Source: a virus. Taken from it: a stretch of DNA of 25,630 bases. The stretch lies in IMG/VR virus record IMGVR_UViG_3300025917_000057, positions 1 through 25,630 of that record; one strand, given 5' to 3'. The number at the start of each line of letters is the position of its first letter. Within the stretch, counting starts at the first letter, position 1. Under the pieces are notes generated by a model. It worked only from the letters and a program-made list of their open reading frames with translations. It was not told where the DNA came from and ran no database searches. A program made the position numbers and the translations under genes. Below, in pieces: positions 941-11,582 of this stretch.

Positions 941-1104
941 GGCGCGGCCCCATCCAGATGGTCGGCGTCGTGCACGGTGAAGTGGCGCGGGTCCGAGCAG
1001 TTGTCACGCTCGCAGACCGCACCCCCGCACTCGCAGTATTGGCACTCGCCATCGACCACCGAGTTTTGCGCGTGGCAGACGTTGCAATACCAGATGCCAG
1101 TCAT
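937..1104 (-). CDS. 55-residue cysteine-rich zinc-ribbon protein
   Basis: The ATG at 1104 was chosen because it overlaps the stop of the gene before it (ATGA) and is followed at once by the first zinc knuckle; the frame is open further upstream but those codons lie inside the neighbour. Ligand candidates are C7-N-V-C10, C21-Q-Y-C24, C26, C31, C36, H41 and H45, enough for two metal sites in 55 residues. The CxxC-x10-CxxC start resembles RanBP2-type or rubredoxin-like knuckles. Function unknown. Confidence 0.75.
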   Translation of the reverse strand: MTGIWYCNVCHAQNSVVDGECQYCECGGAVCERDNCSDPRHFTVHDADHLDGAAP

Positions 1105-1232
1105 CGCTTGGCCTCCTCCTGGGCGGCGCACTCGTCGCAGATCATGCGCAGCCGCCCGTGCCACTCACGGGGCTTCATCGGGCGCTTCGCGCTCTCGACG
1201 CGGTTGCAGCAGTAGCAGCGCTCCTACTTCAT
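1101..1232 (-). pseudogene. Zinc-ribbon mini-gene interrupted by an early amber codon
   Basis: Reading from the ATG at 1232, which overlaps the stop at 1229-1231 in the usual ATGA way, the frame is Met-Lys-TAG-Glu-Arg-Cys-Tyr-Cys-Cys, then open to a TGA at 1101-1103 that overlaps the next start. With the amber at 1224-1226 read through it would be 43 residues with C6xxC9 and C32xxC35, a typical small zinc ribbon. The nearest in-frame ATG after the stop (codon 19) would lose the first CxxC. The intact overlaps at both ends argue that this was, or still is, a gene. It may be a nonsense allele, a sequence error or a suppressed codon. Confidence 0.6.
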
Positions 1233-1684
1233 CGGTTCCAGTGGAAGTCGACCGGCGCGGGCTCCAGGGCGCCGAGCTTCGCGTAGTCCTCGATCGTCGC
1301 GGGGGTCCGGAGCGGGATCGCATCGTAGGTCGCGTGGCTCATGTACCGTCCCTCGCGCGAGCCGTCCCGCCGCTTGAAGAGCACGTGGACACGGCCATCT
1401 CGACCACCGAGCGCCGAGCAGCGGACCGCCGCCCCGCTGGCCAGCAGGGCGGCTTCCCGCTCGCGCTCCGCCTTGTAGCTGGCCGACGCCGCCTCGCAGG
1501 TCGGATGGTACTTGGCCACGTTCGCGGGCTTCCGGCTGCCGTAGGGCACGACCTTTCGACAGTCCGGGCAAAGGGCCGCGGCGGGGCAGTAATTCCAGGG
1601 GCAGCGCACCCGGCGCACGCCCGTGTAGTTGGGGCAGTTGTCGCAGCAGAGGCGCCCGGTCAGCGCGTCGATCGAGTAGCCCAT
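1229..1684 (-). CDS. Zinc-binding phage protein, 151 residues
   Basis: Start at ATG 1684, two bases after the stop of the gene upstream; the longer open frame to 1867 lies inside that neighbour. The N-terminal half is a Cys/His-rich domain: C13, C14, C17, C28, C33, C39, C42, H60 and C63. A charged helix follows (SYKAEREREAALLASG, 69-84), then a strand-rich C-terminal part (VHVLFKRRDGS onward). The opening MGYSIDALTGRL-CC and the late YHPTCEAAS resemble a recurrent family of uncharacterised phage zinc proteins, recalled from memory. Function unknown. Confidence 0.8.
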   Translation of the reverse strand: MGYSIDALTGRLCCDNCPNYTGVRRVRCPWNYCPAAALCPDCRKVVPYGSRKPANVAKYHPTCEAASASYKAEREREAALLASGAAVRCSALGGRDGRVHVLFKRRDGSREGRYMSHATYDAIPLRTPATIEDYAKLGALEPAPVDFHWNR

Positions 1685-1686
1685 GG

Positions 1687-2010
1687 TCAGCCTCCGTAGT
1701 GTCGCGCGATGCCCACGGGGGTCACGCCGAGCGCCGCGCTCACGCGCTCCACCGCGGGGGTTCCCTCGTAGCCGCCGATGTGCCAGGACGTCGTGGTCTC
1801 GACCGGCGGGCCCATCTTGTAGTCGTAGACCGTGGCCAGCGTGCCGTCCGCAAACTCGATCACCCACTCGGCCTCCACCTTGTCGCCGTAGCGGAAGGTC
1901 GGCTCGCCGAAGGCCGCGATCAGGCGCGCGTAGGGCATCGGAGGCAGGAACCCCCGGAGGCTCGTGCCGTGCCGGGAGGCCTCGTCACTCGTCAGGGTCC
2001 GGTAGGTCAT
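1687..2010 (-). CDS. Conserved phage protein with WHIGG motif, 107 residues
   Basis: ATG at 2010 is preceded by GGGAGG, a good ribosome site; the reading frame continues upstream but overlaps the 56-residue gene. The core runs LIAAFGEPTFRYGDKV (30-45), then AEWVIEFADGTLATVYDYKMG (47-67) and TSWHIGG (74-80). This order of strand, DGT turn, YDYK and WHIGG is a pattern I associate with widespread phage proteins of unknown function. A small alpha/beta fold is likely. No catalytic residues are evident. Confidence 0.82.
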   Translation of the reverse strand: MTYRTLTSDEASRHGTSLRGFLPPMPYARLIAAFGEPTFRYGDKVEAEWVIEFADGTLATVYDYKMGPPVETTTSWHIGGYEGTPAVERVSAALGVTPVGIARHYGG

Positions 2011-2021
2011 GGCGCCCTCCC

Positions 2022-2192
2022 TCACAGGTAGTTCCCGATCCGGTGCCCCGCGGAGTCCACGAGGTCCTCGGTCGGCTTCCCCGCTGTTGCGACCGCTGCT
2101 GCCACCACCGCCGCCTCCAGGGCCGTGAAGTCCGGGTCCGGGAGGGCCTCGGCCACCACCACGCCGTCGCGCACCGCGTATCGGGTTTTCAT
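2022..2192 (-). CDS. 56-residue protein, first gene behind promoter at 2213
   Basis: ATG at 2192 lies 20 bases after the -10 box of the 2213-2240 promoter and behind GGAAGGAG, the standard short leader of this window. The frame ends with TGA at 2022-2024. The protein has a short N-terminal strand (TRYAVRDGVVVAEAL), an Ala/Val-rich helix (TALEAAVVAAAVATAG, 23-38) and a polar C-terminus. No family is recognised. Its leader position suggests it is well expressed. Confidence 0.7.
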   Translation of the reverse strand: MKTRYAVRDGVVVAEALPDPDFTALEAAVVAAAVATAGKPTEDLVDSAGHRIGNYL

Positions 2193-2212
2193 CGCTCGCT
2201 CCTTCCACCCTC

Positions 2213-2240
2213 AGTGTAGCACAGTCTATGTCCAGGTCAA
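2213..2240 (-). promoter_or_regulatory. Repeated promoter element, copy 1
   Basis: On the minus strand: -35 TTGACC (2240-2235), 16-bp spacer, extended -10 TGC plus TACACT (2218-2213). The spacer carries GGACATAGAC. GAC triplets recur at 6-bp steps. The leader to the ATG at 2192 is 20 bases with GGGTGGAAGGAG. The TGA inside the -35 box is the stop codon of the 19-residue frame at 2237-2296. Drives the unit running to base 1. Confidence 0.8.
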
Positions 2241-2296
2241 CTCAGTGGCTTGTCCAGGGCACGCGCCCGGGCGCCGACGTCGTAGGCGTAGCTCAT
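2237..2296 (-). CDS. Possible 19-residue peptide ending in the promoter -35 box
   Basis: ATG at 2296 overlaps the stop of the 93-residue gene (ATGA) and opens a frame MSYAYDVGARARALDKPLS with its TGA at 2237-2239, inside the TTGACC box of promoter copy 1. The frame is too short to judge by composition. It may be a real coupled peptide, the remnant of a longer gene cut off when the promoter cassette arrived, or chance. Confidence 0.35.
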   Translation of the reverse strand: MSYAYDVGARARALDKPLS

Positions 2297-2574
2297 CCCA
2301 CGATCAGGCCAGCGTCCATGGCCCCCTCCAGGATCGGCAGCACGTAGCGGGGCTCGACCAGCCGGGCCCCGAGGCCGAAGGGCTGGTAGCCCTCGCCGGA
2401 GACATGCTCCTCGATCCAGGCGTAGCCCGCGTCGGTCATGCCGCGCAGGATGGCGAGGCTGCCGTGGTGCTCCACGATGATGTCGGGCCGGGCGGGGTCG
2501 GCCCCCGCGGCCTCGGCCATCGCGGCGTCGATGCGGCGCTCCTCGTCGTGGTCGGCCTGCATGCTGTAGGTCAT
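2293..2574 (-). CDS. Acidic 93-residue protein, unknown
   Basis: The ATG at 2574 overlaps the previous stop (ATGA at 2571-2574), which decides the start over the longer open frame. The protein is acidic (HDEERRIDAAMAEAAGADPA, 9-28), followed by IIVEHHGSLAILRGM, AGYAWIEEHV and the C-terminal VEPRYVLPILEGAMDAGLIVG. The alternation of predicted helix and strand suggests a compact globular domain. No motif I recognise. It belongs to the six-gene unit driven from 3379-3406. Confidence 0.75.
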   Translation of the reverse strand: MTYSMQADHDEERRIDAAMAEAAGADPARPDIIVEHHGSLAILRGMTDAGYAWIEEHVSGEGYQPFGLGARLVEPRYVLPILEGAMDAGLIVG

Positions 2575-2759
2575 GTGACCCTCCCGCTGTTGAAGACTCC
2601 GTACCGCCGGTTCGCGACGTTGCTGCGCCGCAGTCCGCGCCGTCGCAGGCGCCGCTCGACTGCCGCGAGCGCGGCCCACCCGCGCACCACCGTGGTCCGC
2701 CAGAGCGAAGAGCCGTGCTCCAGGTAGGTCACGCTGAAGAGCGCTGGCTTGGCCATCAT
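2571..2759 (-). CDS. Small arginine-rich protein, 62 residues
   Basis: Start ATG at 2759 overlaps the stop of the preceding gene (ATGA at 2756-2759); a second Met follows directly. The N-terminal half (FSVTYLEHGSSLWRTTVVRG, 8-27) looks like two strands; the middle is highly basic (AAVERRLRRRGLRRSNVANRR, 32-52), suggesting nucleic-acid or polyanion contact. Family unknown. It is kept because of the strict coupling at both ends. Confidence 0.7.
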   Translation of the reverse strand: MMAKPALFSVTYLEHGSSLWRTTVVRGWAALAAVERRLRRRGLRRSNVANRRYGVFNSGRVT

Positions 2760-2980
2760 GCGGGCTCCTTCGAGTAGAGATGATTGAAGTCGCCGAAGCG
2801 GCTCGACATCTGGTTGAACCGCTTCACGAGCGCGGCGGCGTCCTTGAAGGTCAGCCGGTGCGCCTCGTCGCGCCCTGGCATCCAGCGGGACCCGCCGTGG
2901 AGATGTGGGCCCGCGTACCAGAACACCTCAGTGCGCTGCGCGAGGACGATGCGCTTCTGGATCACGTAGGTCTTCTTCAC
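2756..2980 (-). CDS. 74-residue protein, unknown
   Basis: ATG at 2980 with ATGA overlaps on both sides. Sequence order: MKKTYVIQKRIVL strand, FWYAGPHLHGGSRWMPGRDEAHRL loop, then helix FKDAAALVKRFNQMSSRFG. The layout of a short YVI strand, an aromatic Gly loop and a helix with DAAAL is common among small phage proteins that describe themselves only as hypothetical. Cytoplasmic. No function can be assigned. Confidence 0.75.
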   Translation of the reverse strand: MKKTYVIQKRIVLAQRTEVFWYAGPHLHGGSRWMPGRDEAHRLTFKDAAALVKRFNQMSSRFGDFNHLYSKEPA

Positions 2981-3210
2981 CGGACCCTCCGCGCCAGCGG
3001 GACCCCGGCCTTGTAGTAGGCCCGGTTCCGATCGCTGTTGTAGCCCGTCTTGCCGTAGATCCGGCCCTCGTACTCCAGACCCGCGGGCAGCCGCTTGAAG
3101 CTGCCGTAGGGGTCGTCGGGGTCGATGTCGACCACCAGGAAGTGATCGCCGTCGCAGGTATGGGGCTCGACCAGGAACGCATCCGCAATCGGCTTGGCGG
3201 GGGCCTTCAT
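2977..3210 (-). CDS. 77-residue protein, unknown
   Basis: ATG at 3210 was chosen by the ATGA overlap with the zinc-ribbon gene upstream and a nearby GGAAG. Features are HTCDGDHFLVVDIDPDDPYGSFK (17-39) and GLEYEGRIYGKTGYNSDRNRAYYKAG (44-69). The DIDPDDPYG stretch is acidic and could bind a metal ion, but no fold is recognised. The aromatic C-terminal half suggests a beta-rich domain. Confidence 0.75.
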   Translation of the reverse strand: MKAPAKPIADAFLVEPHTCDGDHFLVVDIDPDDPYGSFKRLPAGLEYEGRIYGKTGYNSDRNRAYYKAGVPLARRVR

Positions 3211-3359
3211 GTCTTCCTCCCGAAGTTCTTGGCCGCGCCCTTGAGGCAACGCGGGCACGTGATTTCCGAGGGGTTGATCGAGAACCGCAGCGCGCCGGTC
3301 GCCCCGCAGGGCGCCTTGCCGGGAGCCGAGAACCAGTGGACCTTCTTGGGGCCGCTCAT
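3207..3359 (-). CDS. 50-residue zinc-ribbon protein, lead gene
   Basis: ATG at 3359 stands 19 bases after the -10 box of promoter copy 2 with a GGAGGA site; an in-frame ATG further upstream would start inside the promoter and is not used. The protein has H8-W-F, C18, and C35-P-R-C38, the order KVHWF...CG...CPRC that I recall from many small phage zinc proteins. The basic tail (GAAKNFGRKT) may contact nucleic acid. Function unknown. Confidence 0.8.
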   Translation of the reverse strand: MSGPKKVHWFSAPGKAPCGATGALRFSINPSEITCPRCLKGAAKNFGRKT

Positions 3360-3378
3360 CGCTCTGTCCTCCATCCCA

Positions 3379-3406
3379 AGTCTAGCACAGTCCATGTCCA
3401 GGTCAA
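3379..3406 (-). promoter_or_regulatory. Repeated promoter element, copy 2
   Basis: Minus strand: -35 TTGACC (3406-3401), 16-bp spacer containing GGACATGGAC, extended -10 TGC plus TAGACT (3384-3379). The leader to the ATG at 3359 is 19 bases. The TGA in the -35 box is the stop codon of the 3403-3588 gene. Drives the unit 3359 to 2237. Confidence 0.8.
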
Positions 3407-3588
3407 GCCGCCCGGGGCAGGTTCCCGATGGCGTAGCGGTGGTCGCCCGCGGGCGCGCACGCCGTGTGGTCGGCGTGGGCCTCGTTGGCCAGGATCAGGG
3501 TCCGGTAGACGCCCGACCAGCCGCAGGCGCACACGATGACCCGGACGGGCTCGGTGGCATCGGACCGGCGGAGGCCCCGGGTCGCCAT
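3403..3588 (-). CDS. 61-residue CxCGW zinc-finger-like protein
   Basis: ATG at 3588, four bases after the previous stop. It carries V-C20-A-C22-G-W, then H38-A-D-H41 and C44, a CxCG ... HxxH pattern like a minimal zinc finger; a similar one is seen at 9783-10091. Its stop codon TGA (3403-3405) lies inside the -35 box of promoter copy 2, so the end of the protein is set by the promoter element. Function unknown; zinc binding is inferred from the ligand spacing. Confidence 0.75.
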   Translation of the reverse strand: MATRGLRRSDATEPVRVIVCACGWSGVYRTLILANEAHADHTACAPAGDHRYAIGNLPRAA

Positions 3589-3592
3589 GGTG

Positions 3593-3820
3593 TCAGCCCA
3601 CCTTCACCGCGTGCCGCTTGATCTCGGCCACGTAGGTGTCGCCGTACTCGCCGTCCGGCACGAACGGGCTCGTCACGAAGCAGAACCAGCGCGCGTAGGG
3701 CTTGTCGTCGTCGGCGCTGTACTTCTTGAGCACCTTCCAGGTCCAGGTGCCGTCGGCCGACTTCCAGGTCTCGTAGGGGTTGTCGGGCTTCCGAGTCTTG
3801 CCGCAGAGGTTCTTGGCCAT
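3593..3820 (-). CDS. Conserved phage protein, 75 residues
   Basis: ATG at 3820, 29 bases after the -10 box of promoter copy 3. The protein reads AKNLCGKTRKPDNPYETWKS (2-21) then GTWTWKVLKKY (24-34), PYARWFCFVTSPF (41-53) and GEYGDTYVAEIK (57-68). I recall this NPYE-W-S-DG-WTWKVLKKY ... GDTYV pattern from many phages of unrelated hosts, always without a function. Likely a small beta-rich cytoplasmic protein. Leader hairpin: GGAGG pairs with CCTCC just before the start. Confidence 0.82.
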   Translation of the reverse strand: MAKNLCGKTRKPDNPYETWKSADGTWTWKVLKKYSADDDKPYARWFCFVTSPFVPDGEYGDTYVAEIKRHAVKVG

Positions 3821-3849
3821 ATCCAGGAGGCCTCCCTACCTCCACCCTC

Positions 3850-3877
3850 AGTGTAGCACAGTCTATGTCCAAGTCAA
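3850..3877 (-). promoter_or_regulatory. Repeated promoter element, copy 3
   Basis: Minus strand: -35 TTGACT (3877-3872), 16-bp spacer containing GGACATAGAC, extended -10 TGC plus TACACT (3855-3850). The leader is 29 bases and can fold GGAGG (3841-3837) onto CCTCC (3832-3828). Unlike other copies the DNA upstream is a non-coding gap, not a gene. Drives 3820 to 3403. Confidence 0.78.
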
Positions 3878-4014
3878 GGAGGGGCGGGAACGACCCGCGC
3901 CGCGGTGATCCGGGACCCCCGGGGTGTCGCCTCGGGAACCACCCGAAGTCGTCACCTGGGAGCCTCCGGCGCGCCGACACGTCCCGAGATGGTGAGTCCC
4001 GGTGTCGGCCCTCC
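3878..4014. other. 137-bp non-coding gap with hairpins
   Basis: No convincing gene lies between the stop at 4015 and promoter copy 3. The plus strand holds an 8-bp inverted repeat GCCGACAC ... GTGTCGGC (about 3975-4011) and a shorter TCGGG/CCCGA stem (about 3931-3946). They may terminate the single-gene transcript of 4015-4209 or form a small structured RNA. No T-run follows the stems. Confidence 0.5.
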
Positions 4015-4209
4015 TCAGATCAGGCCCAGCCGCAGGAGCCAACTGGGCTTGCCGTGCGGGCACCGCCCGTCGGGCTCGACCCGGCAACCGTCGGTGGCCT
4101 TGGCCACGCCGTCCTCCATCCACTTCGCCAGGGTCTTCGGGCTGGGTACCTTGGGAGCCCGCGGGGTCTCCGACTCGATCAGCGTCCCGTCCGACCAGGA
4201 GTTCCTCAT
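4015..4209 (-). CDS. 64-residue protein with GCxVEPDGxCPHGxPSWLL motif
   Basis: ATG at 4209, 20 bases after the -10 of promoter copy 4 with GGAAGGAG. The helical N-terminal half (SPKTLAKWMEDGVAKATD, 23-40) is followed by C42, VEPDG, C50-P-H52-G and PSWLLRLGLI at the very end. I recall this C-terminal signature as a frequent ending of short proteins in phages and bacterial genomes. C42/C50/H52 may hold a metal. It is the only gene of its unit, facing the divergent switch region. Confidence 0.82.
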   Translation of the reverse strand: MRNSWSDGTLIESETPRAPKVPSPKTLAKWMEDGVAKATDGCRVEPDGRCPHGKPSWLLRLGLI

Positions 4210-4229
4210 CGCTCTCTCCTTCCACTCTC

Positions 4230-4257
4230 AGTCTAGCACAGTCTAAGTCCAAGTCAA
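4230..4257 (-). promoter_or_regulatory. Repeated promoter element, copy 4
   Basis: Minus strand: -35 TTGACT (4257-4252), 16-bp spacer with GGACTTAGAC, extended -10 TGC plus TAGACT (4235-4230). Leader 20 bases. It forms one half of a divergent pair with copy 5, the two -35 boxes being about 90 bp apart. Confidence 0.8.
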
Positions 4258-4326
4258 GGGCCCCCAGGTGAATTGACGCGCCGCGGTAGCCCAGGAGGCC
4301 CGAGGAGCCGGGCCGCAACCTGCTGA

Positions 4327-4339
4327 TTCGCCAGGCGAA
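4327..4339. promoter_or_regulatory. Inverted repeat in the divergent region, possible operator
   Basis: TTCGCC-A-GGCGAA is a perfect 6+6 bp dyad centred at 4333. It ends 8 bp before the -35 box of promoter copy 5, a typical place for a repressor or activator. It is absent from the other eight copies, so it would act on the central switch only. Functional role is inferred from position. Confidence 0.45.
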
Positions 4340-4347
4340 AATAGCGT

Positions 4348-4375
4348 TTGACACGGACATAGACTGTGCTACCCT
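4348..4375 (+). promoter_or_regulatory. Repeated promoter element, copy 5
   Basis: -35 TTGACA (4348-4353, full consensus), 16-bp spacer with GGACATAGAC, extended -10 TGC plus TACCCT (4370-4375). The 42-base leader contains the hairpin block shared with copy 9. Head of the rightward early region. Confidence 0.8.
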
Positions 4376-4407
4376 TGGGGTGGAGGCGGAGAGAGCCTCC
4401 GGAAAGG
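4374..4407 (+). repeat. 34-nt leader block with hairpin, copy A
   Basis: Identical over 34 bases to 10538-10571. It contains GGAGGC (4382-4387), a 7-base loop GGAGAGA, and GCCTCC (4395-4400), followed by GGAAAGG. In RNA the stem would hide one GGAGG sequence and leave AAAGG as ribosome site about 10 bases before the ATG at 4418. Confidence 0.7.
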
Positions 4408-4417
4408 TGGACCCCCG

Positions 4418-4669
4418 ATGAAACGGCCCCTGAAGACCTGGCGGGATGGGCGGCTGTACGAGTCCCCGGAGGCGGCGGCCCTGGCCGGTGAGGCGGTGAC
4501 GCTCTTCGGTCTGCTCCCGGCCCCGGTGGTGGAGGAGCCCGAGGTGCTGGGCGCGGAGTACGAGGCCTGGCTGGATGCCCTGGAGGCGACGGCCGGTCCC
4601 GCGGCGGCGACCCGGGCGAAGGCGCTCCGGGCGGCGGGCCGGGCCAAGAAGCTCGCGGAGGCTGCCTAG
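4418..4669 (+). CDS. 83-residue Ala/Glu-rich protein, lead rightward gene
   Basis: ATG at 4418 follows promoter copy 5 and its hairpin leader. The protein begins MKRPLKTWRDGRLYESPEAA and continues as an acidic, alanine-rich helical region ending in a basic helix (AAATRAKALRAAGRAKKLAEAA, 62-83). No family recognised. It is one of the few genes here ending in TAG (4667-4669); two codons later a TGA overlaps the next ATG exactly as ATGA. Confidence 0.75.
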   Translation: MKRPLKTWRDGRLYESPEAAALAGEAVTLFGLLPAPVVEEPEVLGAEYEAWLDALEATAGPAAATRAKALRAAGRAKKLAEAA

Positions 4670-4671
4670 CC

Positions 4672-4896
4672 ATGAAGCTCAACAAGTACGAGGTCTACGC
4701 CTCCGTCGCTGGCGGTGCCACGCTCCACGTGACTCTGGTGGCTTCCAGCGAGCGGGCGGTGCGGGCGCGGCTGTTCCCCTGGCTCGCGGCGGCCGGGTTC
4801 GACCGGACCTACGTGCGGGTGCTGAAGACCGCGCGGACCCATCGGACCGAGGGCCTGTTCCGGAAGCTCTACCCGGTGCTGGAGGGCACGTCATGA
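4672..4896 (+). CDS. 74-residue protein, unknown
   Basis: ATG at 4672, two bases after the preceding TAG; the stop overlaps the next start (ATGA at 4893-4896). N-terminal strands (KYEVYASV, ATLHVTLVA) are followed by a helix ERAVRARLFPWLAAAG and a strand YVRVLKTA, then a basic tail, consistent with a small alpha/beta domain. No motif is recognised. Part of the seven-gene unit 4418-6162. Confidence 0.75.
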   Translation: MKLNKYEVYASVAGGATLHVTLVASSERAVRARLFPWLAAAGFDRTYVRVLKTARTHRTEGLFRKLYPVLEGTS

Positions 4897-5090
4897 AGAT
4901 CACGCCGGATCGGAAGTTCGTGGTGGTGACGTTCGACCCCGCGCATCCCGAGTTGAAGGTGCCGGTGGGCAAGGGCGGCACGATCGAGGCCGCGCGGAAG
5001 GTGCTGAAGGGCCTAGCGGCGCGGGCCAACGGCTGGGCCCTGGAGATCCTGGCGGCGCCCGACTGGACGCCGGTCCCGGTGGAGGGCTGA
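4893..5090 (+). CDS. 65-residue protein, unknown
   Basis: ATG at 4893 in an ATGA overlap with the gene upstream. Layout: KFVVVTFDPAHPELKVPVG strand region (8-26), helix TIEAARKVLKGLAARA (30-45), strand WALEILAAP (48-56). The strand-helix-strand order and small size suggest a compact cytoplasmic domain. Nothing catalytic is visible. Function unknown. Confidence 0.72.
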   Translation: MKITPDRKFVVVTFDPAHPELKVPVGKGGTIEAARKVLKGLAARANGWALEILAAPDWTPVPVEG

Positions 5091-5093
5091 GCG

Positions 5094-5315
5094 ATGCTCC
5101 TCTACCCCCGGAAGCCGAAGGGCAAGCCGAGCGAGTTCCCGCCCGTGCGCCGTTGCCACGTCTGCCGCGTCGAGCTTTCGCTGCACCCCGACGCGGGCCA
5201 TCTGGCGCTGTCCTACTGCGGGGACTGCGGCAAGCCGACCTGCGGCGATCATCGGGACGAGACCAGTGCGGCGCGCTGCTCGACGTGCCGGGCCCGCAAG
5301 GGCGAGGAGGACTGA
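5094..5315 (+). CDS. 73-residue double zinc-ribbon protein
   Basis: ATG at 5094, three bases after the previous TGA. Cys/His pairs are C21-H-V-C24, C42-G-D-C45, C50-G-D-H53 and C62-S-T-C65, i.e. four pairs that could bind two metals in a cross-brace arrangement as in small RING or B-box-like folds (inference from spacing only). The ends are basic and highly charged. Likely a protein- or nucleic-acid-binding adaptor; no family assigned. Confidence 0.78.
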   Translation: MLLYPRKPKGKPSEFPPVRRCHVCRVELSLHPDAGHLALSYCGDCGKPTCGDHRDETSAARCSTCRARKGEED

Positions 5316-5318
5316 GCG

Positions 5319-5459
5319 ATGGCGGGCGTGAGCCGCAAGTGTGACGAGTGCGGCCAGATCAAACGCTGCCACCTGCACGTGGTCGGCGAAGCTCGCACGC
5401 TGACTTACGTCTGCAAGCCCTGCGAGCGGAAGCTGGGCTACCGAAAGGCGACGCGATGA
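5319..5459 (+). CDS. 46-residue zinc-ribbon protein
   Basis: ATG at 5319 three bases after the preceding TGA; TGA at 5457-5459 overlaps the next ATG. The protein has C8-D-E-C11, C17-H-L-H20 and C32-K-P-C35 with basic ends. It resembles a single zinc ribbon with an extra CH/H cluster between the knuckles. It follows directly on another zinc-ribbon gene, so the two may be functionally linked or old duplicates. Function unknown. Confidence 0.75.
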   Translation: MAGVSRKCDECGQIKRCHLHVVGEARTLTYVCKPCERKLGYRKATR

Positions 5460-5644
5460 AGAACCCCGGCACCCTGGCCAACAAACTCGGCACGCTCGAC
5501 ACGGCCCGGCTGTGGCTGGTCCGTGCCGATACAGCGCTCCGCGAGCCCCCACCCGATACGGCCACCGCGATCCGCGCCCTGGAACTGGCCGAGAAAGAGA
5601 TCGGCCACCTCCTCGCGGCCCTGAAGAAAGGCGGCGCGCGATGA
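5456..5644 (+). CDS. 62-residue helical protein, unknown
   Basis: The ATG at 5456 overlaps the preceding stop (ATGA), deciding the start. Almost entirely helical by composition: TLANKLGTLDTARLWLVRADTAL (6-28), then TATAIRALELAEKEIGHLLAALKKGG (35-60). The heptad-like leucines could support a helical hairpin or dimer. The stop overlaps the next ATG. No family recognised. Confidence 0.72.
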   Translation: MKNPGTLANKLGTLDTARLWLVRADTALREPPPDTATAIRALELAEKEIGHLLAALKKGGAR

Positions 5645-6162
5645 ACGTCTACGACTCCGTCAACAAGGTCTGGCCCGCCAGCATCCCGCCGATCACGCGC
5701 GTCGAAGCGGAGCGCGCGGCGAAGCGCCTGGGGAAGGCCTTCAACACGCCCTGGCGGGCCCGGCGCGTGCGCCGCTGCTGGATCGACCCGACCGGCAAGC
5801 GCCCGCTGACCCGCGGCTGGTGGCGGCTGGTCCACGACATCTCCCACTACACCTGGGACGAGCGGCGGCTCCGGCTGCCGATCGGCGGCACCCGCCCCCA
5901 CGGCGGCTTCCACGCCGCCCTGGAGCGCGAGATGGCCGAGTACGTGGTCCGCCACGGTTGGCTCGACGGCAAGCTGAAGTCGAAGCCCCCGAAGCCCAAG
6001 GCCCCGCCCGACCCGGTCGCGGTTCGCGCCGACCGGCTGGCCGCCGCGCGCGCCACCCTGGCCGCCTGGGAGCGCAAGCTGAAGCTGGCCACGACCAAGG
6101 TCAAGCGGTGGCGCCGGATCGTCGGCGCCAGGGAGCGGGCCCGGGCCGTGGCCGCCCCTTGA
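5641..6162 (+). CDS. Conserved phage protein with His-rich core, 173 residues
   Basis: ATG at 5641 in an ATGA overlap. The opening (NVYDSVNKVWPASIPPITR) and the core WWRLVHDISHYTW ... PHGGFHAALEREMAEYVVRHGWL (about 60-115) form a pattern I recall from unannotated phage proteins. The H-x-x-S-H and H-A-x-x-E spacing could bind a metal, as in a hydrolase, but no known protease signature is present. The C-terminal third is a basic coiled-coil-like helix. The TGA stop (6160-6162) lies within the -35 box of promoter copy 6. Confidence 0.8.
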   Translation: MNVYDSVNKVWPASIPPITRVEAERAAKRLGKAFNTPWRARRVRRCWIDPTGKRPLTRGWWRLVHDISHYTWDERRLRLPIGGTRPHGGFHAALEREMAEYVVRHGWLDGKLKSKPPKPKAPPDPVAVRADRLAAARATLAAWERKLKLATTKVKRWRRIVGARERARAVAAP

Positions 6163-6186
6163 CTTGGACTTGGACTGTGCTACACT
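6159..6186 (+). promoter_or_regulatory. Repeated promoter element, copy 6
   Basis: -35 TTGACT (6159-6164), spacer of 16 with the triple TTGGAC-type repeat, extended -10 TGC plus TACACT (6181-6186). Leader 20 bases with GGAAGGAG. The -35 TGA terminates the 5641-6162 gene. Drives 6207-6719. Confidence 0.82.
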
Positions 6187-6206
6187 TGGGGTGGAAGGAG
6201 AGAGCG

Positions 6207-6719
6207 ATGAAGAAGCTGACCGTGACCTTCCCGGATGGGACCAAGGGCAGCCGCCGCACCCCGCGGCCCTACACCTTCGTGATCGCCAGCCGCCTGGACA
6301 AGGCGCGGCCGAGTCGCGATCGGGTGAAGCACCGCTACGAGCCCTGCCCCGAGGCGCGGGCCCTGGAGGCGGACTTCGACGCCAAGCTGAAGGCGGCGCG
6401 GGCGGGCATGAGCTTCACAGCCAGCACCGTCAAGGCCTGGCACGATGCCTTCGACGCAACCTGGCGCGCCCACGAGCCGCTCCGCGGCGCCCACCGCGCC
6501 ACGTGCGCCCTGGCCGCGAAGCTGGGCGGGCGCTGCGATGGCTCGGGCAACGTGAGCATCGAGGTGAGCCGCTCGCCCGAGCCCACGGGCTGGCTGCCGG
6601 TCTCCTGGCACCACTCCCGGACCCTGGCCGACAAGGCCCTGGCCACCAGCTACACCGACTGGAAGACCCGGGGCTACGACGAGGTCCGGATCTTCCCGGT
6701 GGACGGAAACGGGGGTTGA
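6207..6719 (+). CDS. 170-residue protein, unknown
   Basis: ATG at 6207, 20 bases after the -10 of copy 6. The N-terminus KLTVTFPDGTKGSRRTPRPYTFVIA (3-27) looks like a beta hairpin; a helical middle (about 49-95, ALEADFDAKLKAARAG) leads to GNVSIEVSR and WLPVSWHHSRTLADKALA, then DEVRIFPVDG. It is the only gene between promoter copies 6 and 7, so it can be expressed alone. No recognised motif. Confidence 0.78.
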   Translation: MKKLTVTFPDGTKGSRRTPRPYTFVIASRLDKARPSRDRVKHRYEPCPEARALEADFDAKLKAARAGMSFTASTVKAWHDAFDATWRAHEPLRGAHRATCALAAKLGGRCDGSGNVSIEVSRSPEPTGWLPVSWHHSRTLADKALATSYTDWKTRGYDEVRIFPVDGNGG

Positions 6720-6723
6720 TGGC

Positions 6724-6751
6724 AGCGTTCGGACATAGACTGTGCTACATT
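6724..6751 (+). promoter_or_regulatory. Repeated promoter element, copy 7, without -35 box
   Basis: The core GGACATAGACTGTGC and extended -10 TGC plus TACATT (6746-6751) are fully kept, and the leader to ATG 6772 is 20 bases. At the -35 position the sequence is AGCGTT instead of TTGACN. A TTGA occurs 8 bp further upstream (6716-6719), as though bases had been inserted there. An extended -10 can allow function without a -35 box. Confidence 0.65.
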
Positions 6752-6771
6752 GAGGGTGGAGGGACCAAGCG

Positions 6772-7314
6772 ATGACGACGACGGAGCGGGCGGCGGCGAT
6801 CCGAAAGACCCTGAAGGCCCGGTACGGCTGGACCGGCCGGGATGTCTCGGTGGTCTCGGACCTGTACTCGATGGGCTCCAGCATCCGCATCCGGATCAAG
6901 AACCCGGCGGTGCCGCTGGCCGCGGTCAAGGCGGTGGCGGACGGGCACGAGTCGGTCCGCTACGACGAATACAGCCACGAGATCCTCTCCGGCGGCAACC
7001 GCTTCGTGTTCGTGGACTACGCGCACGAGGCGGTGGCAGCCTTCCGGGCGAAGTACCTGGAGCCGGTGACGGCCGCGGTGGCGGCGGCGAGCGGCAGCAG
7101 TCTGATCCCGGTGGCGGGCACCCCGTTCTTCGTGGGGCGGCGCGACGAGGGCCACCGCTACTCGCTCTGGAGCGAGACGAGCCACCTGTCCGAGCACTAC
7201 GGGCCCGAGGGACTGGCCGAGGCCATCGGGGCGCGCATGGTGCCCCCGCCGCGGGAGTCTTTCTCGAAGGGAACCGCTTGGGAGCAAAACGACCGAAGCT
7301 CCAAGGAGGGTTGA
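6772..7314 (+). CDS. LPD29-like protein, 180 residues
   Basis: ATG at 6772 behind promoter copy 7. Residues 3-78 read TERAAAIRKTLKARYG ... VSVVSDLYSMGSSIRIRI ... VRYDEYSHEILSGGNRFVF, an order of helix, strand, SMGSSI turn and strand that I associate with the LPD29 domain of phage and conjugative-element proteins; I could not search to confirm it. The remaining part (HEAVAAFRAKYLEPV and a C-terminal GHRYSLWSETSHLSEHYG) is of unknown fold. The last codons Lys-Glu-Gly encode the ribosome site of the next gene. Confidence 0.75.
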   Translation: MTTTERAAAIRKTLKARYGWTGRDVSVVSDLYSMGSSIRIRIKNPAVPLAAVKAVADGHESVRYDEYSHEILSGGNRFVFVDYAHEAVAAFRAKYLEPVTAAVAAASGSSLIPVAGTPFFVGRRDEGHRYSLWSETSHLSEHYGPEGLAEAIGARMVPPPRESFSKGTAWEQNDRSSKEG

Positions 7315-7317
7315 GCC

Positions 7318-7530
7318 ATGAGCCGAGTGACCCGAGCCGCTTTGATTCGCGAGGCCGCGCACCTGAAGAGCGAGCACGGAGAGAACCCGGAGTACGACCG
7401 GGCCTTGGTCGAGTTGGTCACGTTTGTGACGGGTGGCACCGCGGCCGACCTGCCCGCCACGGCGCGAGAGATCGGCATCGTGGAGCACCCCGACGGGCTC
7501 TGGTACGCGCGCGCCAACAAGGAGGGCTGA
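7318..7530 (+). CDS. 70-residue protein, unknown
   Basis: ATG at 7318, preceded by AAGGAGGG that overlaps the end of the gene before. The protein starts MSRVTRAALIREAAHLKSEHGENPEYDRALVELV (helical) and ends WYARANKEG, again encoding AAGGAGGG for the next gene. Its first codons and the upstream junction are nearly identical to those of 7534-7893 (MSRVTR against MSRETR). No family assigned. Confidence 0.75.
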   Translation: MSRVTRAALIREAAHLKSEHGENPEYDRALVELVTFVTGGTAADLPATAREIGIVEHPDGLWYARANKEG

Positions 7531-7533
7531 GCC

Positions 7534-7893
7534 ATGAGCCGAGAGACGCGGAAGCTGGGGGAGCGGGCCTTCGCGGGCGCCGCCGAGGGCGAGGCACTCA
7601 CCATCGAGGTGGCCTACGAGCGGGGCGGCATGAACTTCCTGACCGGGACGTCGGGCGGGCGCGGCTACTACCTCCGCGTGCGCCCCGAGACCGTGAAGGA
7701 CGGCATGCGGAGCTTCACGCTCTTCGAGGGGATCAAGGCCCTGGTCGAGCCCGCGGCCCGGTTCAGCGAGAAGAAGCTCGCGACCGTGGCGCCGGACCCG
7801 GCCCTGGTCGACAAGCTGGTGGCCAAGGTCCTGGCCGATCGAGCCGAGCGGAACGCGCGCGAGGCGCGGCGACGCGGAGAGGTCCCGGCATGA
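7534..7893 (+). CDS. 119-residue protein, unknown
   Basis: ATG at 7534 behind AAGGAGGG. The core LTIEVAYERGGMNFLTGTSGGRGYYLRVRPETV (22-54), then FTLFEGIKALVEPAARFSEKKLATVA (61-86), has a TGxxxxRGYYLxVxP pattern that I recall from unannotated phage and plasmid proteins. The C-terminus is a charged helix (LADRAERNAREARRRGEVPA). Probably cytoplasmic and alpha/beta. Its stop overlaps the next ATG. Confidence 0.77.
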   Translation: MSRETRKLGERAFAGAAEGEALTIEVAYERGGMNFLTGTSGGRGYYLRVRPETVKDGMRSFTLFEGIKALVEPAARFSEKKLATVAPDPALVDKLVAKVLADRAERNAREARRRGEVPA

Positions 7894-8321
7894 AAACGGA
7901 GACGGACTACGAGCGGGCGGCGCGGGCGGTCGCGGATCGGATGGGTCTGGTCGTGCAGGCGGTGCGGCCCGCGGCGGCGCGGTGCCCGGCCTGGCGGTCG
8001 CCCTGCGATCACGTCCACGGGGATCACTACCGCGTGCGGCTGCACTTCACGGGAAAGGTGGCCGACCACCCGAGCCGCGGGGCGCTGAGCTTCGACTTCT
8101 GGAACAGCCAAGCCGCGAGAGAGAAGGGCGAGGCGCCGGGCTACTACGACATCCTCTCCTGTGTGGGGAGCGATGCGAGCCTGCCCACTGATCCCGACGA
8201 ACTGATGGAGGAGTTGGGGCCGATGAAGGTGCGCCAGGCCCTGGCTTCCTGCCGGTTCACGAGACGCCTGCAGGCCTTCTTCACGGAGGCCGAAATCGAG
8301 CAGATCGGAGAGATTCGATGA
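7890..8321 (+). CDS. Conserved phage protein, 143 residues
   Basis: ATG at 7890 in an ATGA overlap. A helical N-terminus (TDYERAARAVADRMGLVVQAV) is followed by C32 and C39-D-H41-V-H43-G-D-H, then HYRVRLHFTGK and LSFDFWNSQAA ... YYDILSCVGSDASLPTDPDELMEELG. The order HYRVxL, FxFWNSxA and DILSCxxSDA with a following acidic helix is a pattern I recall from phage hypothetical proteins. The Cys/His group may hold a metal. Function unknown. Confidence 0.8.
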   Translation: MKTETDYERAARAVADRMGLVVQAVRPAAARCPAWRSPCDHVHGDHYRVRLHFTGKVADHPSRGALSFDFWNSQAAREKGEAPGYYDILSCVGSDASLPTDPDELMEELGPMKVRQALASCRFTRRLQAFFTEAEIEQIGEIR

Positions 8322-8506
8322 CCGCCCGCGGCTTCTACAAGAACCCAAAGAAACCCGAGCAGAAGCGCCGCGAGTTGGTGCGCGCCTTCCTGGAAGACTT
8401 CGCGCGCCTGGAGCGGAAGAATACCGACGAGGTCGGCTGGATCGCGCTGAAGTTCTCGACCACGCGCGACCAGGCGGCGCGGCTCATCGAGGAGGCCCGG
8501 CGGTGA
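8318..8506 (+). CDS. 62-residue basic helical protein
   Basis: ATG at 8318 overlapping the preceding stop. The N-terminus is basic (GFYKNPKKPEQKRRELVRAF), followed by LEDFARLERKNTDEVGWIALKFSTTRDQAARLIEEARR, which alternates helices with a short turn and could be a helix-turn-helix-like fold (WIALKFSTTRDQAARLIEEA, 42-61). That would suit a small DNA-binding protein, but it is not demonstrated. The stop overlaps a GTG start. Confidence 0.68.
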   Translation: MTARGFYKNPKKPEQKRRELVRAFLEDFARLERKNTDEVGWIALKFSTTRDQAARLIEEARR

Positions 8507-9057
8507 CCCAGATCTACGTCGACATGGACGGCGTCCTGGCGGACTTCGACGGTGGGGCCCTGGAACACCTGGGCCTGCGCGATCCGCGCAAGGCCGAGTC
8601 CGAGATCGGCGCCACCGAGTTCTGGCGCCGGATCGGCGCGATCCCGCACTACTACCGCAGCCTGCCGCTGATGCCGGACGCCCGCGTGCTGTGGGCCGGA
8701 GTCCTGGCCGCGCGCCCGCGGCCCCCGATCATCCTGACCGGCGTGCCCTGGTCGATCGCGACCGCGGTCGCGGACAAGCGGGCCTGGGCGGCGGAGCACT
8801 TCCCGGGCGCCGCGGTCATCACCTGCGCGGCGAAGGACAAGGCACGCTACTGCCGCCCGGGCGACATCCTGATCGATGACTGGCCGAAGTACCGGGCCCT
8901 GTGGGAAGCCGCGGGCGGGACCTTCATCGTCCACACCTCCGCGGCCACCTCGCTGGAGGTCCTGGCCCAGGCCACGTGCCCGGGCTGCTCGCTCTGCTGC
9001 TCGGGGTGCGCGGCGGACACGTACGGCCTGGAGCCGGAGCCGCACACCTGCCGATGA
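8503..9057 (+). CDS. HAD-family 5'(3')-deoxyribonucleotidase-like protein
   Basis: 184 residues, start GTG at 8503 overlapping the preceding TGA. Motif I is D7-M-D9-G-V-L-A-D-F-D, with D7 the expected nucleophile and D9 the acid/base. Motif II is ILTG (T79), motif III likely K111 or K113 in KDKARYC, motif IV ILIDD (D125, D126). This fits phage NT5C-type HAD phosphatases, which remove phosphate from deoxynucleoside monophosphates in the cytoplasm and help phage nucleotide supply. Odd is an added Cys-rich tail after about residue 156 (C159, C162, C165, C166, C169, C183). It is the only clear enzyme of the early region. Confidence 0.88.
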   Translation: MTQIYVDMDGVLADFDGGALEHLGLRDPRKAESEIGATEFWRRIGAIPHYYRSLPLMPDARVLWAGVLAARPRPPIILTGVPWSIATAVADKRAWAAEHFPGAAVITCAAKDKARYCRPGDILIDDWPKYRALWEAAGGTFIVHTSAATSLEVLAQATCPGCSLCCSGCAADTYGLEPEPHTCR

Positions 9058-9164
9058 AGACGCGCCCCTGCACCTGTAGCAAACCCGCGGAGCCGCACGA
9101 CCGCCGGAGCCATGCTGATTACGGCTCCGGGGGCATCCGCAAGCACCGGGAGCCGCGTACTTGA
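9054..9164 (+). CDS. 36-residue Cys/His mini-protein
   Basis: ATG at 9054 overlaps the stop of the phosphatase gene (ATGA). C6-T-C8 is followed by H15, H20 and H31 in a basic chain, a CxC ... H ... H layout resembling a minimal zinc finger. The stop TGA (9162-9164) falls inside the -35 box of promoter copy 8. It is short, but it has proper coupling and continues the Cys-rich theme of the tail just upstream. Confidence 0.6.
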   Translation: MKTRPCTCSKPAEPHDRRSHADYGSGGIRKHREPRT

Positions 9165-9188
9165 CTTGGACTTGGACTGTGCTACACT
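9161..9188 (+). promoter_or_regulatory. Repeated promoter element, copy 8
   Basis: -35 TTGACT (9161-9166), 16-bp spacer identical to copy 6, extended -10 TGC plus TACACT (9183-9188). Leader 24 bases with GGAAGGAGG. The -35 TGA ends the 9054-9164 gene. Drives 9213-10515. Confidence 0.82.
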
Positions 9189-9212
9189 GAAGGTGGAAGG
9201 AGGGCCAGGGCG

Positions 9213-9386
9213 ATGCTGAAAGGGAGCCGGAAGGTGAAGCTGACCCGGTGGTACGCCGACGACACGGTCGAGGTCACCGAGCACCCGAGCAAGGCTGCCG
9301 CGGAACGGACCCTGGAGAGCTACTACGCGGACGGCATCTTCCCCTATATCCGCCGCGCGGCAATCGAGCGACTGGAGACGACGTGA
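9213..9386 (+). CDS. 57-residue protein, unknown
   Basis: ATG at 9213 behind promoter copy 8 and a strong GGAAGGAGG, though about 16 bases apart; no better start lies in frame. Sequence: KVKLTRWYADDTVEVTEHPS (strands), then helix KAAAERTLESYYADG and FPYIRRAAIERLETT. A strand-strand-helix mini-domain is likely. Its last base is shared with the next ATG (TGATG). Family unknown. Confidence 0.72.
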   Translation: MLKGSRKVKLTRWYADDTVEVTEHPSKAAAERTLESYYADGIFPYIRRAAIERLETT

Positions 9387-9517
9387 TGACGGACAAGGCG
9401 ACGAAAGCGGTCCTGCTGCTGGCCCGCGACCGCCTCAAGGCGCGCGGCCTGCGGGTGAGCCCGCGGACGCTGCGGGCCGAGGTGGCGCGGATGCGCCGGG
9501 AGGGGCTCCTGAAATGA
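9386..9517 (+). CDS. 43-residue basic helical peptide
   Basis: The ATG at 9386 is formed with the last base of the previous stop (TGATG), and the stop at 9515-9517 overlaps the next ATG. The peptide TKAVLLLARDRLKARGLRVSPRTLRAEVARMRREGLLK is strongly basic with two helices around a VSPRT turn, which could be a helix-turn-helix-like DNA-binding unit. Not recognised. Confidence 0.65.
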   Translation: MTDKATKAVLLLARDRLKARGLRVSPRTLRAEVARMRREGLLK

Positions 9518-9786
9518 GCACGTGGCGCAAGGTCTCGAACGGCTGGGTGCGCGAGGGCGACGGCCGCTTCCTGCCGAAGCTCGGCGGGCGGCGGGCGCTC
9601 CGGCGCGACGATGCCCCCGCGGCCACGCTCGGCACGTCCCTGGCCCGGACCGCCACCTGCACCTGCGGCTGGCGGGCGACGGGCAGCACGCTCGGGGTGG
9701 CGAACGAACTGTGGTGGGCGCACGAAGGACTGACGGCCGACGACGGCCGGAGCCACCGGGTGCGCTACGAGGAGGCCTCCGCATGA
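9514..9786 (+). CDS. 90-residue CxCGW-motif protein
   Basis: ATG at 9514, ATGA overlap. The N-terminal part WRKVSNGWVREGDGRFLPKL is a likely hairpin; then C49-T-C51-G-W leads to ELWWAHEGL with H70, the same CxCGW turn as in 3403-3588. It probably holds one metal with His residues. The C-terminus is charged and the stop overlaps the next start. Function unknown. Confidence 0.75.
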   Translation: MSTWRKVSNGWVREGDGRFLPKLGGRRALRRDDAPAATLGTSLARTATCTCGWRATGSTLGVANELWWAHEGLTADDGRSHRVRYEEASA

Positions 9787-10091
9787 TCGAGATCCGCGAG
9801 ATCGATGGCCGCTTCGCCCTGGCTGAACACGGGCTGCTGCTGCCGATGCGCTACGCGGACCGGGCGGTGGCCGAGGCCCACGCCCGCATGCTCGCGGCCT
9901 ACCCGCTGAGCCGGGGCGAGGTCGCGGCGGCGCTCGCGGGGGCGCGGCGGGCGCGCCACGAGACCCGGCTCATCGAGTCCGGCGGCCGGACCGCCTGGGT
10001 CTGTGTCTGCGGCGATGAGAGCGGCGCATTCGAGAGCTACAACGACGCCCACGACAGCGCCATCGACCACGAGGGAGAGGCGACGGGATGA
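9783..10091 (+). CDS. 102-residue protein with C-terminal CxCG-H-H finger
   Basis: ATG at 9783, ATGA overlap. The first half (MIEIREIDGRFALAEHG, then the helix ADRAVAEAHARMLAAY) looks like a small alpha/beta unit. The C-terminal part has WVC74-V-C76-G-D, GAFESYNDAH90 and AIDH96, a CxCG-x13-H-x5-H pattern like that of 3403-3588. Likely zinc-binding. No family assigned. Confidence 0.75.
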   Translation: MIEIREIDGRFALAEHGLLLPMRYADRAVAEAHARMLAAYPLSRGEVAAALAGARRARHETRLIESGGRTAWVCVCGDESGAFESYNDAHDSAIDHEGEATG

Positions 10092-10273
10092 TCACCCTCA
10101 CGCTGACGGAGAAGGAGGCGGACGTCCTCCACGCCATCCTCAGCTACCAGCATCTCGGCGAGTACGACGGTGGGCCGCTGGGGGACAGCGACAAGCGCGC
10201 CGAGAGCCAGAACGTCGCGGCGGCGCTGCGCATCCAGGCGAAGCTAGAGGCCGCCACCACGGGGAACGGATGA
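10088..10273 (+). CDS. 61-residue protein, unknown
   Basis: ATG at 10088, ATGA overlap at both ends. It reads ITLTLTEKEADVLHAILSYQHL (strand then helix), a Gly/Asp loop, and a helix NVAAALRIQAKLEAA. The LTLTEKEADVLHAIL start resembles the first elements of many small regulatory or structural phage proteins, but nothing specific is recognised. Confidence 0.7.
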   Translation: MITLTLTEKEADVLHAILSYQHLGEYDGGPLGDSDKRAESQNVAAALRIQAKLEAATTGNG

Positions 10274-10515
10274 CCGTCCTGCGCGATGCCCAGGGGCGCC
10301 AGCGTCTCGCCGACCCCTGCCCGGGCTGCGGCAGGCCGACCAAGCGCTTGCCCCGGACCGGCAAGGCCCGCTACCGCCACCGTTGCCCGCATGGGGTCTG
10401 GTGCCCCTGGGGCGAGCGGCCCAACAACATGCATATCAACAACTACCCGCTGGCGGGCGGCTGCCCGACCTGCCGCGAAATCGCGCGGGGAATCGCTAGG
10501 TTCCGCTGCACTTGA
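10270..10515 (+). CDS. 81-residue Cys-rich zinc protein
   Basis: ATG at 10270 in an ATGA overlap; the open frame further upstream lies inside the neighbours. Ligand candidates are C17-P-G-C20, C39, H41, C45, C65-P-T-C68 and C80, enough for one or two metals. The middle is basic (KRLPRTGKARYRHR). The stop TGA (10513-10515) lies in the -35 box of promoter copy 9. Function unknown; nucleic-acid binding is plausible from the charge. Confidence 0.77.
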   Translation: MTVLRDAQGRQRLADPCPGCGRPTKRLPRTGKARYRHRCPHGVWCPWGERPNNMHINNYPLAGGCPTCREIARGIARFRCT

Positions 10516-10539
10516 CATAGACTTGGACTGTGCTAGGCT
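10512..10539 (+). promoter_or_regulatory. Repeated promoter element, copy 9
   Basis: -35 TTGACA (10512-10517, consensus), 16-bp spacer with TAGACTTGGAC, extended -10 TGC plus TAGGCT (10534-10539). Leader of 43 bases with the hairpin block. The -35 TGA ends the 10270-10515 gene. It is the last copy; no further one is seen to the right. Confidence 0.8.
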
Positions 10540-10571
10540 TGGGGTGGAGGCGGAGAGAGCCTCCGGAAAGG
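10538..10571 (+). repeat. 34-nt leader block with hairpin, copy B
   Basis: Same 34 bases as 4374-4407. Stem GGAGGC (10546-10551) with GCCTCC (10559-10564), loop GGAGAGA, followed by GGAAAGG. The following bases diverge between the two copies (CAGGTCCCTCA here), so the conserved block ends sharply. Confidence 0.7.
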
Positions 10572-10582
10572 CAGGTCCCTCA

Positions 10583-11173
10583 ATGGCAATCCGGTGGTCC
10601 CCCGAGACCCTCGCCAGTGATGCCCGCTACCGCCCCGACACGGTCCGCCCCGCGGTCGAGTACGCGGGGCTGGTCCTCAAGGCTCGGCTCGACGGCCCGA
10701 GCTTCAACGACGGCTACGACTGCGTGATCAACGCCCTGGTGTGGGACCCCGCGACCGGGGAGCCCCGCCTGGTGAGCTACGGCTCCACGATGGGGATGAG
10801 CGGCACGGCCGAGGTCGACTCGACCCCCGAGGTCCTGGCCGCGTATGCCGCCTACGAGGCCCGCGAGGCCGAGAAGCGGTCGATCAGCGCCGAGATCCGG
10901 GACCGCAAGCGGGTCGACATCCGCGGCCGGACCGTCAAGGTAGTGCGCGGGCGCAAGGTCCCGATCGGGACCGAGGGCGTCATCTTCTGGAGCGGCCCGG
11001 GCTTCGAGCGGCACCGCTACTTCCGGACCGGCGCGGTGCGGGTCGGCCTCCGGACCGCGGGCGGCGAGAAGTTCTTCACCGACGGGGGCAACGTCGAGGT
11101 GATCGACCCCGTGATCGAGACCCTGGAGGCCCGCTACCGGGCGCTCCGGGGCGACGTGGAGGAGGCGGCCTGA
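10583..11173 (+). CDS. 196-residue protein with KOW/SH3-like C-terminal part
   Basis: ATG at 10583 after the hairpin leader. Residues 25-75 contain YAGLVLKARL ... DCVINALVWDPATGEPRLVSYG, a strand-rich unit. A charged helix (about 84-110) leads to RGRTVKVVRGRKVPIGTEGVIFWSG (114-138) and AVRVGLRTAGGEKFFTDGGNVEVID (151-175). That second part, with VVRGRKVPxGxEG and a late NVEV strand, resembles KOW-type SH3 barrels, which bind RNA or proteins. The assignment is from pattern only. Confidence 0.8.
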   Translation: MAIRWSPETLASDARYRPDTVRPAVEYAGLVLKARLDGPSFNDGYDCVINALVWDPATGEPRLVSYGSTMGMSGTAEVDSTPEVLAAYAAYEAREAEKRSISAEIRDRKRVDIRGRTVKVVRGRKVPIGTEGVIFWSGPGFERHRYFRTGAVRVGLRTAGGEKFFTDGGNVEVIDPVIETLEARYRALRGDVEEAA

Positions 11174-11176
11174 GCC

Positions 11177-11377
11177 ATGACGATCACGCATCTCTCAGTC
11201 CCGGCGCCCGGCGGTGGCCGCGGCCCCGCCTGCAGCATGGGCGCCACCTACAAGGAGCGCCGCAAGCCCACCCCGACCGATCCGTCCACGGTCATCGTCC
11301 ACGAGGTGACCTGCGTCCACTGCCTGCGGGACGCTCTCATTAGTGCGCGGAACAAGCTCTACGTGAAGGAGGGCTGA
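11177..11377 (+). CDS. 66-residue protein with CxxC
   Basis: ATG at 11177, three bases after the stop before it. It has C19-S-M-G, then strand VIVHEVTC46-V-H-C49-L and helix RDALISARNKL. C19, C46 and C49 could form part of a metal site. The last three codons (Lys-Glu-Gly) carry AAGGAGGG for the next gene. Function unknown. Confidence 0.72.
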   Translation: MTITHLSVPAPGGGRGPACSMGATYKERRKPTPTDPSTVIVHEVTCVHCLRDALISARNKLYVKEG

Positions 11378-11380
11378 GCC

Positions 11381-11581
11381 ATGGCCCACAAGACCGACGG
11401 GCCGCTGAAGGTCGAAGTGATCGCCGACAACAGCGGCGAGTGGTGCGGCAACGCGCTGCGGTTCGACACGGTGGACGACGCCAAGGCCTACGGAGCCGAT
11501 CTGGCCGGGCGCTGGACCCTGGTGCGGGCGTGGCGCGTGGTCGAGGTGGCGAGCGAGACCGTGCTGCACAAGGAGGGCTGA
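11381..11581 (+). CDS. 66-residue protein, unknown
   Basis: ATG at 11381 behind AAGGAGGG. The sequence LKVEVIADNSGEWCGNALRFDTVDDAKAYGADLAGRW (8-44) has two strands followed by a DAKAYG helix, then WTLVRAWRVVEVA; it looks like a small beta-alpha-beta domain seen in many short phage proteins. It ends LHKEG, again encoding the next ribosome site. No function assigned. Confidence 0.74.
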   Translation: MAHKTDGPLKVEVIADNSGEWCGNALRFDTVDDAKAYGADLAGRWTLVRAWRVVEVASETVLHKEG

Positions 11582-11582
11582 G

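Follow-up and report, generated by a model that had tools for sequence, protein, structure and literature searches.

Nine near-identical copies of a probable promoter-plus-ribosome-binding-site cassette ahead of the small-gene units of an uncultured GC-rich phage

The DNA analysed here (positions 1 to 25,630 of IMGVR_UViG_3300025917_000057, hereafter the window) is a linear fragment of an uncultured phage from IMG/VR, represents an incomplete genome and has a GC content of 68.8% over its 25,630 nt. About 48 small genes crowd positions 321-14593; those left of 4.2 kb are encoded on the minus strand, those right of 4.4 kb on the plus strand, and most of them overlap or stand a few bases apart. 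Between 17 and 25.6 kb, the window encodes a tail-like protein containing laminin-G domains, and two genes of glycosyltransferase type are located there on the minus strand. The protein encoded at 24039-25562 joins a glycosyltransferase-like part to a methyltransferase domain and has relatives with 53% identity in two AT-rich contigs (L131 and L132), and relatives of a nucleotidase occur also in Caulobacter and Sinorhizobium phages. Matches to an Rz-like spanin (14267-14593; E 4e-4) and to a holin (16552-16959; E 0.005) would indicate a Gram-negative host, although both are weak. The adjacent genes at 14013 and 14267 encode nearly the same N-terminal peptide, (V/M)IRQIYCWL, a partial duplication. 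Positions 1107-1231 (minus strand) likely encode a small zinc-ribbon protein (ERCYCCNRVES...CDECAAQEEAKR). An in-frame TAG comes directly after the overlapping ATGAAG at which this gene would start, which points to a broken gene, a sequence error or a different start. Rfam and tRNA searches gave no matches.

Among the small genes, the first-pass annotation had reported nine copies of a 28-bp element on both strands. A motif count and a weight matrix run over the window confirmed all nine coordinates and strands (four minus, five plus) and found no tenth copy. Plus-strand copies are named below by their first coordinate and minus-strand copies by their last.

2213-2240, minus strand: promoter copy TTGACCTGGACATAGACTGTGCTACACT, heading 2022-2192 plus at least five further minus-strand genes
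3379-3406, minus strand: promoter copy TTGACCTGGACATGGACTGTGCTAGACT, heading five genes, 3207-3359 to 2293-2574
3850-3877, minus strand: promoter copy TTGACTTGGACATAGACTGTGCTACACT, heading 3593-3820 and 3403-3588
4230-4257, minus strand: promoter copy TTGACTTGGACTTAGACTGTGCTAGACT, heading 4015-4209; left half of a divergent pair
4258-4347, no strand: divergent intergenic region of 90 bp that separates promoters 4257 and 4348, both of which face outward
4348-4375, plus strand: promoter copy TTGACACGGACATAGACTGTGCTACCCT, heading seven genes, 4418-6162; right half of the divergent pair
6159-6186, plus strand: promoter copy TTGACTTGGACTTGGACTGTGCTACACT, heading 6207-6719
6724-6751, plus strand: divergent copy AGCGTTCGGACATAGACTGTGCTACATT, which lacks the -35 box, heading seven genes, 6772-9164
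9161-9188, plus strand: promoter copy TTGACTTGGACTTGGACTGTGCTACACT, heading six genes, 9213-10515
10512-10539, plus strand: promoter copy TTGACATAGACTTGGACTGTGCTAGGCT, heading the gene run 10583-14593

The description of each copy as standing before a unit of small genes was accurate in that every copy heads at least one gene, but the units behind 4257 and 6159 are single genes.

The element stands well clear of chance. Its ten-base invariant run, GACTGTGCTA, occurs exactly nine times in the window, a count that did not change when one mismatch was allowed, compared with a mean of 0.63 and a maximum of 3 in shuffled sequence. A 28-mer weight matrix scored the nine copies at 34-53 bits, the next-best site in the window at 1.2 bits and the best shuffled site at 8.3 bits; because the matrix was derived from the nine copies themselves, it is their lead over the next-best site that is informative. 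The same scan of the window found no copies among the structural genes at 17-25.6 kb. Searches with the promoter patterns TTGACn-16-TAnnnT and TRTGnTAnnnT returned eight and nine sites in the window (shuffle means of 0.16 and 0.24), every one of them a copy, and all six sites found by an independent general sigma-70 scan of positions 1-17100 were copies as well.

The placement of the copies follows the gene layout closely. Within 321-14016, each of the eight intergenic gaps longer than 11 nt contains the element (two copies in the divergent gap), none of the 38 junctions of 11 nt or less does, and no copy lies inside a gene. The only exception among the listed gaps, 14017-14111, would be eliminated by a start of the following gene at GTG 14013. 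Along each strand the promoter repeats every 0.4-2.4 kb. Four copies (3406, 6159, 9161 and 10512) overlap the upstream gene (3403-3588, 5641-6162, 9054-9164 and 10270-10515, respectively), whose TGA stop lies within TTGAC. Several direct repeats with an internal 6-bp periodicity might also be expected of sequences that serve a purpose other than transcription, for example iterons in replication or sites of recombination; however, the orientation of the copies always matches the downstream gene, there is one copy per gene unit, they are never clustered and the -10 box is always 19-43 nt from a start codon, and we consider such a role very improbable. A scan for terminator-like sites found none at or next to the copies. 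The 137-nt noncoding stretch 3878-4014, between gene 4015-4209 and promoter 3877, was the only tested segment that folded better than shuffled sequence (minus-strand RNA, z -2.4), and it could be a terminator without a T-run.

Aligned in register, the copies read TTGAC n n R GAC W T R GAC TGTGC TA S n Y T, followed by a GGTGGARG leader. A sigma-70-type -35 box (TTGACA-like) and a TAnnnT -10 box at a spacing of 15-19 bp were found in eight of the nine copies, in each case with a spacer of 16 bp (TTGAC-n-16-TAnnnT), as judged against a consensus from which that of the host may differ. The 16-bp spacer had been ascribed to all nine copies, but 6724 has no -35 box: AGCGTT replaces TTGACn, and everything from GGAC onward is kept, so this copy would depend on the extended -10. 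The TGTGC ahead of the -10 box, by contrast, is as universal as had been claimed and constitutes a full extended -10 (TRTGn) in 9 of 9 copies. The -10 boxes themselves (TACACT, TAGACT and TAGGCT) are moderate matches to TATAAT. The -35 box and the second and third hexads (TTGACT, TGGACA and TAGACT) are alike, and together form three tandem T-n-GAC-n hexads at 6-bp steps. This arrangement, previously described for the whole family, is complete in eight copies, while 6724 keeps two of the three GAC triplets; the two spacer GACs are invariant in all nine copies.

Conservation does not end at the -10 box. The nine near-copies of 28 bp are part of a longer unit, conserved through TGGARG of the Shine-Dalgarno leader GGTGGARG and often as far as the ATG, and the repeated units form families of 43-60 nt. 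As to the leader itself, GGTGGA is found in seven copies and GATGGA only in 3406, as two alternatives reported earlier would have it, but 4257 has AGTGGA. The distance from the -10 box to the ATG is 19-20 nt in five copies and 24 nt at 9161, which places their Shine-Dalgarno sequence near the predicted +1; the leaders are longer at 3877 (29 nt), 4348 (42 nt) and 10512 (43 nt). Three of the leaders are as follows:

6187-6206, plus strand: typical short leader TGGGGTGGAAGGAGAGAGCG, with the ATG next and the Shine-Dalgarno sequence approximately at the predicted transcript start
4376-4417, plus strand: leader with the hairpin GGAGGC-GGAGAGA-GCCTCC, its first 32 nt being those of leader 10540-10571
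10540-10582, plus strand: leader with a hairpin as in 4376-4407

A GGAGG/CCTCC hairpin is present in the leaders of 4348, 10512 and 3877 and would cover the first Shine-Dalgarno sequence; in these three copies its stability was no greater than that of shuffled sequence. Over 60 nt that include the leader, promoters 4348 and 10512 are 90% identical, suggesting that the cassette was copied. Because conservation extends into the Shine-Dalgarno leader and TGA stops lie inside TTGAC, we conclude that the element is a promoter-plus-RBS cassette. To judge from the similarity among copies, it probably spread within the genome when the cassette was duplicated or recombined.

In the reading that we favor, and hold to be quite probable from the sequence, host polymerase carrying a primary sigma-70-type factor reads the nine promoter-RBS copies together. 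The polymerase would bind TTGAC, the extended -10 TGTGC and TAnnnT, and transcription would start about 6-8 bases past the -10 box, so that the transcript would begin nearly at the Shine-Dalgarno sequence GGTGGARGGAG, just before the ATG. One copy would serve each gene unit, with firing outward from the divergent pair 4257/4348, and because no terminator-like site accompanies the copies, the downstream promoters probably supplement transcription that reads through from upstream. Sharing this sequence, all units would be expressed with the same timing and at similar strength, most likely early in infection, given the type and position of the genes. The earlier proposal of sigma-70 promoters is well supported by the -35, extended -10 and -10 boxes that stand in register immediately ahead of the ribosome-binding sites and by their confinement to the gaps longer than 11 nt.

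Promoters for a phage-encoded polymerase or sigma factor are an alternative account of the same repeats. Such promoters typically occur in few, well-conserved copies. According to analyses of phages 7-11, phiEco32 and Xp10, a long near-identity that includes the start region is typical of them (PMC4331800), and since the genome is incomplete, the gene for such a protein could lie beyond the window. However, searches of the window turned up no polymerase or sigma family, the genes that the copies head are small accessory ones, on either strand, rather than structural genes, and the copies match the primary-sigma consensus at the -35 box, TRTGn and -10 box, all correctly spaced, a match that is not required of a T7-type promoter. 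Because the element fits that consensus in all three boxes, we regard a phage polymerase or sigma factor as unlikely.

The suggestion that related phages be searched for the motif led to no relative that carries it; the collections covered were IMG/VR, 84,980 genomes, and phage and plasmid records. Searches with GACNTNGACTGTGCTA (107 stretches, one match each) and GACTGTGCTANNNTNNRRRTGGA (7 stretches) gave approximately chance numbers, as did TTGACNTNGACNTNGACTGNNNTANNNT, with none in viral contigs and five matches in low- to medium-GC genomes. The 52-nt cassette had no phage match and one plasmid match at E=3. Protein-based searches found no relatives of the tail protein, the 10583 protein or the 6772 protein, and the motif was absent from the glycosyltransferase/methyltransferase relatives (L130-L132) and the nucleotidase relatives (L136-L138). 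Those with more than 55% GC (L130, L136 and L138) are short pieces, and L130 stops short of the small-gene region, so absence of the motif there says little. In an unrelated GC-rich virus contig (L010, 656-671), a promoter-like sequence, CCCCTTGACATTGACTGTGCTATCCTGGAGG, precedes a small gene and has both GACs, TGTGC and TATCCT in register, no -35 box, and GGAGG and ATG directly after; we note this lone match as a possible lead.

Whether the spacer is conserved beyond what sigma-70 needs, as the first-pass annotation asserted, was examined by parsimony on the nine copies (39 columns, 28-30 changes needed). The number of unchanged columns (20 of 39) was as under uniform change (P=0.35). The ten-base invariant run exceeds the expected length (P=0.005, or 0.03 without 6724), which weakly favors the assertion, but six of its ten bases are the sigma-read TGTG and TA, the TGTG being the extended -10, and the spacer bases outside TRTG gave P=0.05-0.13 by themselves. 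Near-uniform change and this last result make the conservation compatible with recent copying.

These figures bear on the possibility that, in the same promoters, the T-n-GAC-n hexads over the -35 box and spacer are also bound by a phage protein, a repressor or an activator, through which all nine are switched together, a logic comparable to that of cluster A mycobacteriophage operators and one that may coexist with reading by host polymerase. The three tandem hexads in eight copies, the persistence of the spacer GACs even in the -35-less 6724, the length of the invariant run and the matching register of TGTGC, TATCCT and two GACs at the L010 site all point in this direction. However, most of the conservation is explained by recent copying, the L010 site came from a scan whose match count was near the chance expectation, and the motif was found in no relative. 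In addition, neither a DNA-binding regulator nor a cognate immunity repressor was recognised in the window, which covers an incomplete genome, and beyond the nine promoters GGACWTRGAC occurs only once, at 16081 in the intergenic stretch 16075-16100 (TTCCGGACATGGACATTCCGG), where it could be chance. We therefore consider a regulator acting at these promoters possible but doubtful. A more specific version, in which the hexads form an operator of three adjacent 6-bp repeats, the nine promoters constitute one regulon under the phage regulator and the extended -10 sets a basal level, seems rather improbable to us. Coordinated expression, as had been proposed, can be soundly inferred from the shared sequence, whereas the GAC-bound regulator offered with it found no support in the window or among relatives.

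Repeated phage promoters are already known, and by analogy the nine-copy set read by host polymerase would work like T4 early promoters and PeSL cassettes. T4 early promoters are read by host sigma-70, join -35, TGn and -10 elements and have a consensus that extends beyond the sigma-70 contacts (PMC2988021). The present set would resemble them in having many strong promoters for host polymerase in a single phage, and resembles them in the combination of -35, TGn and -10 with extra consensus and in the location of several near-consensus promoters ahead of accessory, not structural, genes. In contrast to the T4 promoters, the copies described here are nearly identical and fused to ribosome-binding sites, and the A/T-rich UP element of T4 has no counterpart, the columns upstream of the -35 box being unconserved and mostly G+C. 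PeSL cassettes, associated with Arbiol (2010) and Comeau (2014), reportedly combine an early promoter with a stem-loop terminator. A passage of PMC4503421, citing earlier work, places such repeated early promoters between small genes of T4-like phages. The likeness lies in repeated promoter cassettes among small orphan genes of a variable region, and here it is one of position and sequence; no stem-loop terminator accompanies the copies, four of which overlap the upstream stop.

Two mycobacteriophage systems fit the idea of repeated sites but fail on defining features. The SAS/ESAS sequences of cluster K phages are short repeats just upstream of many gene starts (PMC3203893), and like the present element they precede gene starts and include the translation start region. 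However, ESAS are 17-bp imperfect inverted repeats, whereas in our alignment the GAC hexads of the -35/-10 promoter are direct repeats, and inverted ones are absent. The operators and stoperators of cluster A are many asymmetric sites oriented with transcription, some of them in promoters (PMC9283540), and share with our set the abundance of oriented asymmetric sites; however, stoperators are 13-mers that also lie outside promoters and have a known repressor, while all nine copies here are promoter-like.

In this uncultured GC-rich phage, the sequence alone delimits a putative regulon: about 48 small genes, most of them unknown, of a kind that often serves host takeover. The element could also be used as a promoter-RBS part in a GC-rich host, and if its spacer repeats bind a regulator, they would represent a new operator design.
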